Assembly: GCA_017634555.1 (NCBI GenBank) | Contig: JAGBNF010000026.1 | Location: 1 to 64,000 of the forward strand | DNA length: 64,000 nucleotides | Direction: 5' to 3' | Origin: Eubacterium sp. | GTDB taxonomy: Bacteria; Bacillota; Clostridia; Lachnospirales; Lachnospiraceae | Shown here: in pieces, positions 3,951-35,077 of the stretch | How the letters are laid out: every line of letters starts with the position of its first letter | How positions within the stretch are numbered: the first letter of the stretch is position 1 | Translations under genes and position numbers: made by a program | The notes under the pieces: generated by a model | What the model was told of the DNA's origin: nothing | Databases searched by the model: none | The model's input: the letters and a program-made list of their open reading frames with translations, nothing else

Positions 3951-4715
3951 CTACCAATCCCTTTCCTGTAACCAGTTACGCAGCTTCCTCTCTCTTACGG
4001 TTATATCCTGCTCCGACTCCAGTTTCCCCAGAACCAGCTCGCCCTGAATATTACCGTCTACAAGGAAGATCACTCTCTCACTGCAGCTGGCAACCTTCTC
4101 ACTGTGAGTTACCATCATGATCGATGTACCTTCACGGCTGGCATTTACAAGCTCTCTTATTACCTCCATGGAAGCCTTCTGATTCAGGGCTCCGGTCGGT
4201 TCATCAGCAAATACCATCTTAGGATTATTGATTAGAGATCTGCAGAGGCACGCTCTCTGCAGCTGTCCGCCTGATACTTCTGTGATAAATCTGTCTGCTG
4301 TATCGATGATGCCAAGTCTTCTCATAAGAGTCTCCGCGTCTTTATTAACCTCAGCTCTGGACTTCTGCTTTGACTGATATCCCGGAAGGATAATGTTATC
4401 TAAGATATTCAGCTTCTTCATCATATACATCTGCTGAAAGACAAAACCCATTTTATTAAGACGAATCTTTGCCATAGCCTTCCTATCCAGCTTTGATATA
4501 TTTTCTCCGTCAAATGTAACATCACCTGAAGTCATACTGTCCATACCGCTTACGGTATAAAGCAGGGTTGACTTGCCTGAGCCTGAAGGCCCCATTATAG
4601 ATACAAATTCCCCCTCTCCCATACTGAAGTTAACATTCTGAAGTACATTGTTACTATATTCATCTATCACATAGGTCTTGCAAAGATCCTTAACCTCTAA
4701 AACCTTATTACTCAT
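3951..4715 (-). CDS. ABC transporter ATP-binding protein (LolD/MacB type)
   Basis: 254 aa. It energises the adjacent FtsX-type permease. Visible motifs are Walker A (GPSGSGKST), the Q-loop (FVFQQMYMM), the signature (VSGGQLQRA), Walker B with catalytic Glu (MVFADEPTGAL) and the H-loop (MVTHSE). The insertion pattern and length fit the MacB/BceA/LolD group. It overlaps the permease gene by 8 bp, so the two are made together. BceAB-like detoxification of cell-envelope antibiotics is one possible role, but the permease lacks recognisable Bce features. Confidence 0.93.
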   Translation of the reverse strand: MSNKVLEVKDLCKTYVIDEYSNNVLQNVNFSMGEGEFVSIMGPSGSGKSTLLYTVSGMDSMTSGDVTFDGENISKLDRKAMAKIRLNKMGFVFQQMYMMKKLNILDNIILPGYQSKQKSRAEVNKDAETLMRRLGIIDTADRFITEVSGGQLQRACLCRSLINNPKMVFADEPTGALNQKASMEVIRELVNASREGTSIMMVTHSEKVASCSERVIFLVDGNIQGELVLGKLESEQDITVRERKLRNWLQERDW

Positions 4716-31036: not shown

Positions 31037-32317
31037 CTACTTACTGTACTTGGAATAAATTCTGAACGGAACCTCTGCTTCGATATAGATACCATCATCA
31101 CTGTAATCCTCAGTGATCAGCTTACCCATATTTCTGATCTCGGCTACTGCAGACATATCGGAATAACTGAATGTCTTCTCCAGACGTTTTCTGTCCTGCC
31201 TGATCATCTCACCCACTGAATTAAGCAGATCATCCACTCCGTCTCCGGTCTTCGCCGATATCTTTACGGTCATATACGCTCTGACATCGCGAAGATGCAG
31301 TTCTACATCCCGGTTCTCATTATCAAATTCTGCCCACGGATCAGAAGACTTCTTCTCTATACTATCGATCCTATCCATCTTGTTAAATACCGTTAGTATT
31401 TTCTTTCCTTCGATACCCAGCATATCGAGAGTTTCATAAACTACTCTCATGTCATCTTCCACATTCTCCGATGATGCATCCACTACATGAATTATATAGT
31501 CAGCATACTTTGCTTCCTCAAGCGTACTTCTGAAAGCATCTACAAGATTATGAGGAAGCTTCCTGATAAATCCAACCGTATCGGTAAGCAGTGCCTGCTG
31601 CTTTCCTTCCAACAGAATGCTTCTGGTTGTTGTATCAAGCGTTGCGAAGAGCTTGTTCTCTGCCAGAACATCTGCTCCCGTAAGGCGGTTAAGCAGAGTC
31701 GACTTTCCCACATTTGTATAACCTACTATGGCAAATACAGGTATCGGATTACCTTCACGCTTTTTTCTCGTAAGGTCACGGTGATTAACAACCTCCGCGA
31801 GTTCTCTTTTCAGCTGCGATACTCTGGTTCTTATCACACGTCTGTCCTGCTCGAGCTTTTTCTCACCCGGTCCTCTGGTACCGATTCCTCCTCCAAGTCT
31901 CGACATGGCGCGTCCCTTACCGGTAAGTCTTGTGAGTCTATACTGAAGCTGTGCCAGCTCTACCTGAATCTTTCCTTCTGATGTAACGGCATGCTGTGCA
32001 AAGATATCCAGAATCAGCATTGTCCTGTCCATGACCTTGGTATCAAGAATCCTCTCAAGATTACTCATCTGGATAGGAGTCAGCTCATCATCACATATGA
32101 TTCCCGTAGCTTCCGTCGATTCAATAACCGCCGCGAGTTCCTCAAGCTTACCGCTTCCGAGATATGTGGAAACACTCGGTGTATCTATATGCTGAACCAT
32201 CGTAGCAACAGTTTCTGCCCCGGCCGTCTCCGCCAGCTCCCTCAGCTCATCCAGAGCCTCATAGCTGTCCGTACCGACCAGTATTACTTTTTCTATCGGT
32301 TCGTTAGTATATTCCAT
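31037..32317 (-). CDS. hflX: ribosome-splitting GTPase HflX
   Basis: 426 aa. The N-terminal HflX domain (to about 190) ends with the linker GGGIGTRGPGEKKLEQDRR, and the G domain has GYTNVGKSTLLNRL (P-loop), DTTTRS (switch I), TDTVGFIRKLPH and NKMD. It binds ribosomes and rescues stalled or hibernating 70S particles under stress. It has its own sigma-A promoter at 32365-32393, next to the inverted-repeat array. Confidence 0.95.
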   Translation of the reverse strand: MEYTNEPIEKVILVGTDSYEALDELRELAETAGAETVATMVQHIDTPSVSTYLGSGKLEELAAVIESTEATGIICDDELTPIQMSNLERILDTKVMDRTMLILDIFAQHAVTSEGKIQVELAQLQYRLTRLTGKGRAMSRLGGGIGTRGPGEKKLEQDRRVIRTRVSQLKRELAEVVNHRDLTRKKREGNPIPVFAIVGYTNVGKSTLLNRLTGADVLAENKLFATLDTTTRSILLEGKQQALLTDTVGFIRKLPHNLVDAFRSTLEEAKYADYIIHVVDASSENVEDDMRVVYETLDMLGIEGKKILTVFNKMDRIDSIEKKSSDPWAEFDNENRDVELHLRDVRAYMTVKISAKTGDGVDDLLNSVGEMIRQDRKRLEKTFSYSDMSAVAEIRNMGKLITEDYSDDGIYIEAEVPFRIYSKYSK

Positions 32318-32364: not shown

Positions 32365-32393
32365 ATAATAACATCTCACGTACTATCTGTCAC
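32365..32393 (-). promoter_or_regulatory. sigma-A promoter of hflX
   Basis: Minus strand: GTGACA (32388-32393), 17 bp, TATTAT (32365-32370), about 50 bp before the start codon. The repeat array begins about 55 bp upstream of the -35. Confidence 0.72.
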
Positions 32394-32448: not shown

Positions 32449-32707
32449 TACTAACATCTCTGTCTATCATATCTAATATGTTAGTATTTTTTGCAGTCAT
32501 AAAATTTCAGTTTCTGTCAAATACTAACATTCCACTCTTTTCTTTCTGTAATATTAGTAAATTTTGCCGTTTTTAGCAGTTCTGATCAAATTGCCAACTA
32601 ACATATAACGCATATTATGCTTCCTATGTTAGTATTTTCTTCATTTTACCGCCTATTTTTCGCTTCTTATACTAACACATTTCCAACTATTCCACTTAAT
32701 GTTAGTA
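32449..32707. repeat. phased tandem array of TACTAACAT/ATGTTAGTA inverted repeats
   Basis: Four units, each TACTAACAT then 20-21 bp then its reverse complement. Forward sites start at 32449, 32522, 32596 and 32670; reverse sites at 32478, 32551, 32626 and 32699. Start-to-start distances are 73, 74 and 74 for both series, with 29-30 within and 44-45 between units. The arms are conserved (at most one change each), while the 20-bp and 35-bp intervals differ, though intervals 1 and 2 share TTTTGC and CTG-TCAAA blocks. A period near 73.5 bp equals seven helical turns. It lies in the 740-bp gap between divergent hflX and the xylosidase gene. It is not a CRISPR: the conserved part is only 9 bp. Confidence 0.85.
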
Positions 32708-32734
32708 AACGCCCAAAAAACTGCAGATTCCAAT

Positions 32735-32796
32735 ATCCAATGACACAACTCCGACGCAACTCCAACATCCAATGAAACAACTTCGACACCACTCCA
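32735..32796. repeat. 32-bp-period direct repeat, two copies
   Basis: 32735-32764 and 32767-32796 match at about 25 of 30 positions (both start ATCCAATGA and end ACTCCA). The plus strand here is strikingly poor in G and rich in C and A. No gene is supported on either strand from 32318 to 33058. Confidence 0.6.
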
Positions 32797-32966
32797 CATC
32801 CATTAAATCTCCCAAAAAGCCCAAATCCAAGAATATTAATACAAAAACAAAAATCCTATTTCTCAATCGCAAATAATGAGAAGAAGAGTGCAAATAATAA
32901 CAAGTAATGTGATTTTTCGTATGTTAGAATATTTTCTATAAAAGGGGTCGGGGTACAAAAAGGGGT

Positions 32967-33058: not shown

Positions 33059-35077
33059 ATGTCAGACGTAAAAAAGTCAGGAACAGTTTACTATGTTGAC
33101 GCAGCTGCAGCTGTAGGCGGAGACGGATCCAAGGATAAGCCTTTCGTAAAGATCAATGATGCCGCAGCTATCGCAAAGCCGGGTGATGAGGTTATTGTTG
33201 CACCGGGAATTTACCGCGAATGGGTATGCCCTATCAATGCCGGTGAAGAAGATGCGCCGATCACCTATAGATCAGAACAGCCTCTCGGTGCTGTTATTAC
33301 AGGTGCCGATCCTATAACAGGCTGGGCAAAGCACGAAGGTAATGTATGGACAGTCCGTGTAGATAATTCAATCTTCGGAGACTACAATCCATATACCGAA
33401 TATGTATGCGGAGACTGGTACTTCGCACCAACAGTACGCCACACAGGTTCTGTATATTTAAATGACCTTATGATGTATGAGACTGTAACACTTGATGAGT
33501 GTATCGCAGGTGAGCCTGATACAGCCGCATGGAATCATGAAGAGTCAAAGCTTAAGTGGTATACAGAGCAGGACGGCAATGAGACAGTACTCTATGCTAA
33601 CTTCGGCGGACTTGATCCTAACGAAGAGAAGGTAGAGTTCAGTACAAGAAGAAATGTATTCATGCCGGCAGTTAACGGCATCAACTATATTACAGTAAGT
33701 GGTTTTGTTATCACTAAGGGAGCTCCTACCTGGGCACCTCCTGCAGCTTATCAGGACGGACTTATCGGTCCTCACTGGAGCAAGGGATGGATCATCGAGG
33801 ACTGTGAAGTAAGCAACAGCAGATGCTGTGGTATCTCACTCGGAAAGTACCGCGATGAAGAAAACGATATGTATTTCTATACAAAGCAGGTTAAGAGCCC
33901 TACACAGATGGAACGTGACGCAGTCTGCCGTGGACAGTATCACGGATGGCTTAAGGAGAATATCGGAAGTCATATCATCAGAAGATGTCATGTTCATCAC
34001 TGTGAGCAGACAGGTATTGTAGGAAGAATGGGTGCAGTATTCTCAACTATCGAGGACTGCCATATCCATCATGTATGTAATTCACAGCAGCTTGGCGGTG
34101 CTGAGACTGCAGGAATCAAGCTTCATGCAGCTATCGACGTAACAATCCAGAGAAACCATATACATAACTGTATTATGGGTGTATGGCTTGACTGGGAAGC
34201 TCAGGGTGCAAGAATTACAAGAAATCTTCTTCATGATAATCAGCGTCCAAAGGATTCAATAGAAGCAAAGGGCGCAATGTTCAGTAATGATATTTTCATC
34301 GAGGTTGGTCACGGCCCGACACTTATAGATAACAACATCCTTCTTTCAAAGGTTTCAATCACGATTCCTAGTGAAGGTATTGCAGTTATCAATAACCTTG
34401 TCGGTGGTTCCTTCAGCCTTATCAACTCAGGTGTTGACTCAATAGTTAACAACCAGCGTGAGCCTCGATATACACCATACCATATAAGACATAGGACTGA
34501 GGTTGCCGGATTTATGACAATACTTCACGGTGACGACAGAATCTACAACAACATATTCATCCAGAATCAGCCTGTAGAGAATGATTCTCTTACACCTGCA
34601 GATGCTGCATATGAAGTTGTAGGAACCGCACCGTTCGATATCTTCCCATCATATGATGAGTGGATCGCTCAGTTCGACTTTACTAAGGAGCCTGATATGG
34701 GTGCACTTGCAACCGCACATTTCGGACACCTTCCTGTATGGGTTGGCGGAAATGCTTACTTCAACGGTGCAACCGTATGCAAACACGAAAAGGAGATGCT
34801 CGTTGACTCAGACAGCAAAGCTTATGCAAAGATCGTAGTTGACGGAGACAGCTATTCACTTGATACTAACCTTCTCTCACTCCTGGGAGATTTTAAGAAT
34901 AAGATAATGTGCACCGATGATCTCGGTCGTGCATTCGAACCTGAGCAGCGTTTCGAGAGTCCTGACGGAAGCGACATCATCTTTGATACCGATTACTTCG
35001 GTAACAAGAGAGATGATTCCGCTATTCCGGGACCGATCGCAGCTGCAGCTGATGCAGGATGCATCAGATTGATCTAG
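33059..35077 (+). CDS. GH120 beta-xylosidase
   Basis: 672 aa, no signal peptide, so cytoplasmic. It is a right-handed parallel beta-helix enzyme that releases xylose from xylo-oligosaccharides. Recognisable GH120 blocks are GVYREW-like GIYREWVCPIN, GDYNPY, NYITVSGF, PTWAPPAAYQDGLIGPHWSKG, KLHAAIDV and GVWLDWEAQG. By analogy with Thermoanaerobacterium XylC, the Asp in WLDWEAQG is the nucleophile and the Glu in IFIEVGHGP the acid/base. Compared with my memory of XylC there is an insertion of about 13 residues (around QRPKDSIEAKG) between these two. The ribosome binding site is AAAGGAGAAGG. It is transcribed alone. Confidence 0.9.
   Translation: MSDVKKSGTVYYVDAAAAVGGDGSKDKPFVKINDAAAIAKPGDEVIVAPGIYREWVCPINAGEEDAPITYRSEQPLGAVITGADPITGWAKHEGNVWTVRVDNSIFGDYNPYTEYVCGDWYFAPTVRHTGSVYLNDLMMYETVTLDECIAGEPDTAAWNHEESKLKWYTEQDGNETVLYANFGGLDPNEEKVEFSTRRNVFMPAVNGINYITVSGFVITKGAPTWAPPAAYQDGLIGPHWSKGWIIEDCEVSNSRCCGISLGKYRDEENDMYFYTKQVKSPTQMERDAVCRGQYHGWLKENIGSHIIRRCHVHHCEQTGIVGRMGAVFSTIEDCHIHHVCNSQQLGGAETAGIKLHAAIDVTIQRNHIHNCIMGVWLDWEAQGARITRNLLHDNQRPKDSIEAKGAMFSNDIFIEVGHGPTLIDNNILLSKVSITIPSEGIAVINNLVGGSFSLINSGVDSIVNNQREPRYTPYHIRHRTEVAGFMTILHGDDRIYNNIFIQNQPVENDSLTPADAAYEVVGTAPFDIFPSYDEWIAQFDFTKEPDMGALATAHFGHLPVWVGGNAYFNGATVCKHEKEMLVDSDSKAYAKIVVDGDSYSLDTNLLSLLGDFKNKIMCTDDLGRAFEPEQRFESPDGSDIIFDTDYFGNKRDDSAIPGPIAAAADAGCIRLI

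Follow-up and report, generated by a model that had tools for sequence, protein, structure and literature searches.

Among the described systems against which the array presented here can be set are (i) REPIN-RAYT, in which RAYT genes are flanked by REPINs, (ii) helically phased operator clusters and nucleoid-protein sites, e.g. those of Rok, a Bacillus protein with a preference for TACTA, and (iii) integrons, whose attC boxes (RYYYAAC and GTTRRRY) occur with cassette genes. RAYT is described as a single-copy, vertically inherited gene that duplicates REPINs (PMC8049555). Among the matches listed in openly licensed PubMed Central texts there was no description of arrays such as those reported below, and the protein family of gut bacteria that goes with them seems to be undescribed.

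The array in the window and its sister arrays

The window, i.e. the whole stretch of 64,000 nucleotides that was analysed, contains an array of four units with a period of 73-74 bp at 32449..32707, assigned, like its units, to neither strand. In the numbering of the source genome (G000, whose assembly is estimated to be 72% complete) it is C22:32449. Units 1 (32449..32486) and 4 (32670..32707) both read TACTAACA - N22 - TGTTAGTA. Unit 2 (32522..32559) reads TACTAACA - N22 - TATTAGTA, with one mismatch in the right arm, and unit 3 (32596..32634) reads AACTAACA - N23 - TGTTAGTA, with one mismatch in the left arm. The first-pass annotation of this DNA had reported eight 9-base sites, 29-30 bp apart within units that recur every 73-74 bp. 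All eight were found where it had placed them, five as exact TACTAACAT/ATGTTAGTA and three with one mismatch, at 32551 (ATATTAGTA), 32596 (AACTAACAT) and 32670 (TACTAACAC); the measured distances are 29-30 bp between arm starts and 73, 74 and 74 bp between successive units. The expectation for this exact inverted pair in the shuffled window is 0.00. A general detector of at least three phased inverted units returned this array as its sole match in the 64 kb, and gave zero matches in 1.28 Mb of simulated sequence.

A decayed pair had also been proposed at 32895/32921. The letters are indeed present (TAATAACAA and ATGTTAGAA), but the arms lie 26 bp apart as against 29-30 bp, outside the geometry of the array, and the pair could not be confirmed as one of its units. 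A 32-bp direct repeat (pair 84% identical) occupies 32729-32792, just past the array and outside its geometry. On the other side, TAATAACATCTC at 32366-32377 resembles the first arm with its flank (TACTAACATCTC at 32449); it lies 83 bp off, out of phase, and is perhaps a decayed arm.

The array is situated in a divergent intergenic region, between an HflX-type GTPase gene (31037..32317, minus strand), whose start codon is 132 bp from the array, and a GH120-type glycoside hydrolase gene (33059..35077, plus strand), which is 352 bp away. The names initially given to these neighbours, hflX and a xylosidase gene, agree with their domains (GTP-bdg_N, GTP-bdg_M and MMR_HSR1 in the former, Glyco_hydro_120_ins in the latter). 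A promoter scan of this intergenic region gave 5 promoter-like sites, no excess over the mean of 4.0 in shuffles.

The relaxed pair TACTAMCA-N-TGKTAGTA was found at 18 exact places in the source genome. When mismatches are allowed, the places resolve into six arrays, all of them intergenic and with a period of 73-75 bp: C1:19408 (4 units, beside a gene for a 272-aa protein), C16:7010 (5 units), C16:44124, C16:61065 and the window array (4 units each), and C23:4627 (4 units plus one odd unit at 4574). The arms TACTA[A/C]CA...TG[G/T]TAGTA are common to all six, and, with the odd unit excluded, 49 of the 50 arms start with TACTA. Arm position 6 is A or C in either arm, and the two arms would not pair there in 16 of 25 units. 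The impression that most of the intervening sequence is not conserved was confirmed, since interiors are 0.349 identical between the arrays of this genome (0.32 when shuffled), as against 0.912 for left arms. The genes beside the arrays encode an SDR, a Rex-like regulator, a LicD protein, an HD-domain protein and others, and those named have no evident shared function.

A nuclease-like protein family linked to the arrays

The 272-aa gene (G000:C1:19742-20557, minus strand) lies on another contig than the window and adjoins comEC; its array is 71 bp away, on the 3' side of the gene. In G139, a genome of another genus, an array is located between comEC and a homologue 47% identical to the G000 protein. 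Family matches at E <=1e-10 were obtained in 96 of 299 sampled genomes of the bacterial family, with one match in G000 and up to 7 per genome elsewhere. A close set of 11 members from nine genomes, ten of them 47-63% identical to the G000 protein, forms one side of a branch (100/99) that separates it from three distant members. An adjacent array accompanies 10 of these 11 genes, often with other arms but with an unchanged geometry (interior 20-23 bp, interval 35-37 bp); at the one exception, in G078, the gene begins 34 bp from a contig end. The gene-adjacent arms are TACTAMCA in G000, GGCTAACC in G398, GGCTACCA in G139, GGCTAAGA in G089, AGGTAACA in G160, TACTGTAA in G156 and AGCAATGA in G252, and GGCTAAGR, GGCGAACA and GGCYACCA at three paralogues of G073. 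G160 and G000 belong to one genus and differ in their arms. Across the ten-locus set, the distances of the whole proteins and of the arms were not significantly correlated (Mantel r 0.16, p 0.24).

According to Pfam, comEC is found near the gene in G000, G139, G089, G160, G156 and G398, and holA in G089, G160, G078 and G252. A comEC and/or holA neighbourhood is thus present in 8 of the nine close-set genomes, and the G073 paralogues are located elsewhere. The gene-adjacent array of G398 is located 3' of the family gene, as in G000. In G252 (L113 7123-7288) a TwoAYGGAY RNA (Rfam RF01731) is found a few kilobases from the linked gene.

Pfam and NCBIfam gave nothing convincing for the linked protein. 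With PADLOC models, about residues 150-266 match the C-terminal end of PDC-S68 (E 1.9e-26, and down to 7.4e-27 in the family), and some members have a weaker match to HEAT_CxxC_PD-DEXK. The close set conserves the motifs SKSE, PDF and EH.G, and conservation is almost as complete among distant members; the canonical PD-(D/E)XK lysine is not obvious. By homology and by its conserved acidic motifs, the protein is a predicted member of the PD-(D/E)XK superfamily. It appears to begin with a helical or coiled-coil-like portion, which is followed by a conserved central part and then by a C-terminal domain resembling PD-(D/E)XK nucleases. The central part, at roughly residues 35-80, might be read as three strands and a helix, recalling arm-type or AP2-like DNA-binding domains; sequence comparison with the Protein Data Bank yielded no convincing relative. 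A second G139 homologue (L166 2983-3435, G139:C3) has a stop codon in the matched stretch and no array. Viral contigs contained no full-length relative and one C-terminal relative, within a long protein. The matches in eight plasmid records are confined to the C-terminal part. Three phage-labelled, unannotated scaffolds also match, one of them over 91% of the protein at 33% identity, and no array was seen on that scaffold.

Arrays were also sought independently of the gene. Among 397 genomes of the bacterial family, the relaxed pair gave one isolated pair each in two others (G283 and G387), and the core pattern matched three genomes, G000, G139 and G304, the last with one isolated match; the single-site matches in G283, G387 and G304 were set aside as isolated. 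A two-unit pattern run over named genomes detected arrays in Eubacterium sp. RGIG7096 (two loci) and in a Lachnospiraceae genome (5 units). Its match in Bacteroidales (L024), as well as pattern matches in five viral contigs, were discarded as being isolated or belonging to different repeats. A sequence-only model of two units led to G139, with arms GGCTACCA/TGGTAGCC and the same geometry; this search scored at most nine candidates per listed genome, so further arrays may exist. The pattern search gives six places in G139, which proved on inspection of the units to be arrays of 8, 7, 5, 5 and 2 units and one single unit. G398 was first found from arm DNA alone, and it carries the family gene (58% identity).

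Scattered copies with gene-adjacent arms are present in four genomes (G000, G139, G089 and G073). G089 yielded 31 exact pairs on ten contigs and G073 40 exact pairs on nine contigs, matches that arise partly by design, because the arms used to search each of these genomes were those beside its own family genes. G398 has one kind of arm in its scattered array (TACTAACA) and another in its gene-adjacent array (GGCTAACC), and G397 has arrays for which no family homologue was found in that genome. At several loci (e.g. L136, L143, L145 and L113) contigs end at or near arrays, and copy numbers in draft genomes may therefore be underestimated.

Several individual loci deserve description. In two G139 arrays (L085 4947-5498 and L086 4531-5060) the unit types alternate, giving a higher-order repeat of two units and ~147 bp. 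By eye, the second of these arrays ends with a lone left arm (L086 5048-5078) immediately ahead of what is probably the ribosome-binding site of a DUF4422 gene, whose promoter would consequently be within or upstream of the array. A five-unit array (L025 6480-8000, also inspected by eye) starts 9 bp after a GNAT-like gene; next come a terminator-like sequence and a reverse-transcriptase-like gene recalling a group II intron. In G397 an array (L092 4337-6172) is located upstream of a tRNA-Pro gene and an integrase-like gene.

Array geometry and near-whole-turn periods

We classified the placement of 41 arrays in eight genomes relative to ORFs of at least 100 aa, frames largely within an array being left out. 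None of the 41 lies inside an ORF, and two overlap predicted frame ends, by 23 and 26 bp; 29 are between tandem, 4 between convergent and 3 between divergent genes, and 5 were unplaceable. Unit steps are 72-74 bp, with the exception of one array (L151: 68, 73, 73 and 78 bp). In 39 arrays comprising 199 units, the interior measures 20-23 bp (21 or 22 in 187 units) and the interval 35-37 bp (36 in 133 of 160). Between the arrays of the four multi-array genomes, identity is 0.90-0.96 for left arms, as against 0.35-0.50 for interiors (shuffled 0.32-0.37) and 0.33-0.41 for intervals. Within arrays, the identity of interiors is 0.40-0.82, above the between-array values, which means that units multiply in tandem and that mainly the arms and their spacing are held across arrays. 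In most other genomes the arms are complementary over nearly all positions. In G073a, 36 of 52 units have arms that disagree at position 8; among 39 exact-core units, this position forms a non-pairing combination in 14, a G-U pair in 12 and a standard pair in 13.

The linkage extends to more distant homologues, 32 of 44 of which have an adjacent inverted-arm array. Among four such homologues, arrays adjoin those of G007 (63 bp) and G026 (52 bp), and none were found at G290 and G219. A survey of 40 more, in which an array had to comprise at least three units and to lie no more than 1.3 kb from the gene, gave an adjacent array at 30 and none at 10; of 35 survey arrays, 30 are located 5' of the gene. 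Taking all homologue loci together, 42 of 55 have an adjacent array and 13 have no detected array, whereas none of the control pieces, 40 simulated and 24 real, gave a match. A 25th real control piece contained the window array, which was detected.

The periods of the survey arrays cluster near 53, 63, 74 and 84 bp, i.e. 5, 6, 7 and 8 helical turns. The best modulus was 10.45 bp, with an R of 0.84 (maximum of 2000 simulated sets, 0.61), two odd values being kept in the test: 71 bp, which is off the whole-turn series, and 47.5 bp, from an AT-rich stretch that is probably a spurious array. The p value of this test is descriptive only, because the array loci share ancestry. The best tree of 53 proteins requires a minimum of 11 changes of turn class, versus 19.9 in shuffles; when only the starred branches are counted, the 7-, 5-, 6- and 8-turn labels must change 4, 1, 2 and 2 times, respectively, and many branches are weak. 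The sister proteins of G224 and G261 have arrays with periods of 74 versus 83.5 bp and the same arm core, and, as read from the units, the difference is an extra turn within the interval. G073 contains five paralogues with adjacent arrays of ~73, 74, 74, 63.5 and 84.5 bp, i.e. three period classes with different arms, which indicates that the geometry follows the gene and not the genome.

Interpretation and comparison with described systems

The arrays recur in several genomes, are linked to one gene family, keep a constant geometry with near-whole-turn periods and lie between genes. We consider it fairly probable that the nuclease-like family has a DNA-site array of which the window contains a dispersed, intergenic copy, with a mechanism that would comprise binding, bridging, autoregulation and propagation. 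A protein dimer would bind the inverted 8-bp arms, and protein contacts would bridge neighbouring units; such bridging would place the bound units on one helix face and hold the period near whole turns (7 here; 5, 6 and 8 in relatives). The near-whole-turn periods point to joint, cooperative contact of neighbouring units on one face of double-stranded DNA, which makes most sense of them, and the linked protein would be the simplest reader of the arms. The first-pass annotation had likewise favoured a protein-binding array on one DNA face over hairpin RNA or CRISPR, a reading strengthened by the unpaired arm position 6 and by the periods near 5, 6, 7 and 8 turns in homologues. The gene-adjacent array probably serves autoregulation, and the same protein may maintain or spread the scattered arrays, for which regulated nicking or breakage together with gene conversion is the likeliest route. 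Gene and arrays could in this way persist together, as RAYT genes do with REPINs. Counterpoints are that arm distance does not track protein distance, that G398 has two kinds of arms, that G397 has arrays without a detected gene and that 10 of the 40 surveyed homologues lack an array.

Alternatively, the arrays could be regulatory, with the 272-aa protein or another regulator controlling the neighbouring genes as a regulon and the nuclease-like activity lost or secondary. The 5' location of 30 of the 35 gene-adjacent survey arrays is as expected of an autoregulatory operator, and the 29 arrays in tandem intergenic regions are necessarily upstream of some gene. However, we regard a regulon as unlikely, given the lack of an evident common function among the named G000 neighbours, the four arrays between convergent genes, the position 3' of the family gene in both G000 and G398, and the fact that close and distant members largely retain SKSE, PDF and EH.G.

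The proposal that the array controls hflX or the xylosidase gene, made when the locus was initially annotated, was not supported. The divergent intergenic region would suit an ordinary transcription-factor operator cluster for hflX or GH120, unrelated to the nuclease-like protein, but the same arrays adjoin varied other genes at five other loci of G000, 4 of the 41 classified arrays are convergent, and the arrays are linked to one protein family across genera, all of which makes a local operator very improbable.

We would give hardly any credence to a neutral tandem duplication or satellite, expanded by slippage and near the gene by chance. Tandem duplication does occur, since units are more alike within than between arrays, and the ~147-bp repeat of G139 also speaks for it. 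Against this explanation stand the left arms, far better preserved between arrays than interiors and intervals, and the adjacent arrays at homologue loci, which the real and simulated control pieces lack. Chance or decayed duplication, the possibility against which the array had originally been weighed, is not borne out, as the arms recur at five other G000 loci and the spacing is kept in other genera.

Least credible of all, and close to negligible, is an RNA-level element (tandem hairpins or a CRISPR-like array): the inverted arms could pair, as their near-complete complementarity in most other genomes allows, and the period and the arm-interior-arm size recall a CRISPR repeat plus spacer, but position 6 is unpaired in most G000 units, position 8 mismatches in G073a (a weak point, since 12 G-U and 13 standard pairs occur among the 39 units), near-whole-turn periods concern double-stranded DNA, and the variable interiors leave no constant repeat. 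At the gathering score, Rfam gave nothing at the window array or at the arrays of eight other loci; two matches lie elsewhere.

These results tie a protein family found in 96 of 299 sampled genomes to DNA arrays that repeat in step with the helix. The one-turn changes of period between relatives constitute genomic evidence for face-specific assembly, and protein plus array offer a testable two-part system for how bacteria keep scattered repeats. A new DNA-binding scaffold is conceivable, because the G073 paralogues go with different arms and periods. More tentatively, we suggest as a possibility that these loci represent an undescribed, widespread class of gene plus satellite, in which a nuclease-like protein polymerises on arrays of inverted half-sites that evolve by whole turns, and spreads or conserves them within its own genome via directed breakage and gene conversion. 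If true, homing or centromere-satellite drive would have a prokaryotic parallel, in which arm specificity turns over even within a genus.

Two of the known array types were rejected. A CRISPR array does not fit, since only the arms are constant across arrays, the interiors differ and near-identical repeats are absent; there were no cas genes among the direct array neighbours scanned. An integron attC array was dismissed because TACTAAC and TACTACC do not conform to RYYYAAC, and no classified array is in or spans a gene. The candidate defence families of PADLOC, PDC-S68 and HEAT_CxxC_PD-DEXK, have a nuclease-like C-terminal domain in common with the linked protein. In contrast to it, the PDC-S68 models span 1202-1273 positions, of which the C-terminal end alone is matched; we know of no arrays for either. 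Helically phased operator clusters and nucleoid-protein sites, such as those of Rok, resemble the arrays in their short helix-phased sites and proposed cooperative binding. Unlike those sites, the present arrays have arms that vary from gene to gene, and they are linked to a nuclease-like gene.

REPIN-RAYT is the closest analogue and the system that would work most alike. In both cases a chromosomal enzyme gene has inverted repeats beside it and scattered between genes, and the comEC/holA neighbourhood in all but one of the nine close-set genomes is as expected of vertical inheritance; the G073 paralogues do not share it. The differences concern both partners. Instead of a Y1/HUH transposase, the protein has a PD-(D/E)XK-like C-terminus (PADLOC), and a Pfam scan of the 272-aa and 303-aa proteins found no Y1/HUH (IS200/IS605-like) transposase domain. 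Some genomes also contain several paralogues. REPINs are single hairpin-forming doublets, whereas the arrays described here mostly consist of 3-12 units with a near-whole-turn period, 8-bp arms without an inner palindrome and a ~22-bp interior that is weakly or not conserved. Since neither the enzyme nor the repeat fits, the arrays and their protein are not members of REPIN-RAYT.
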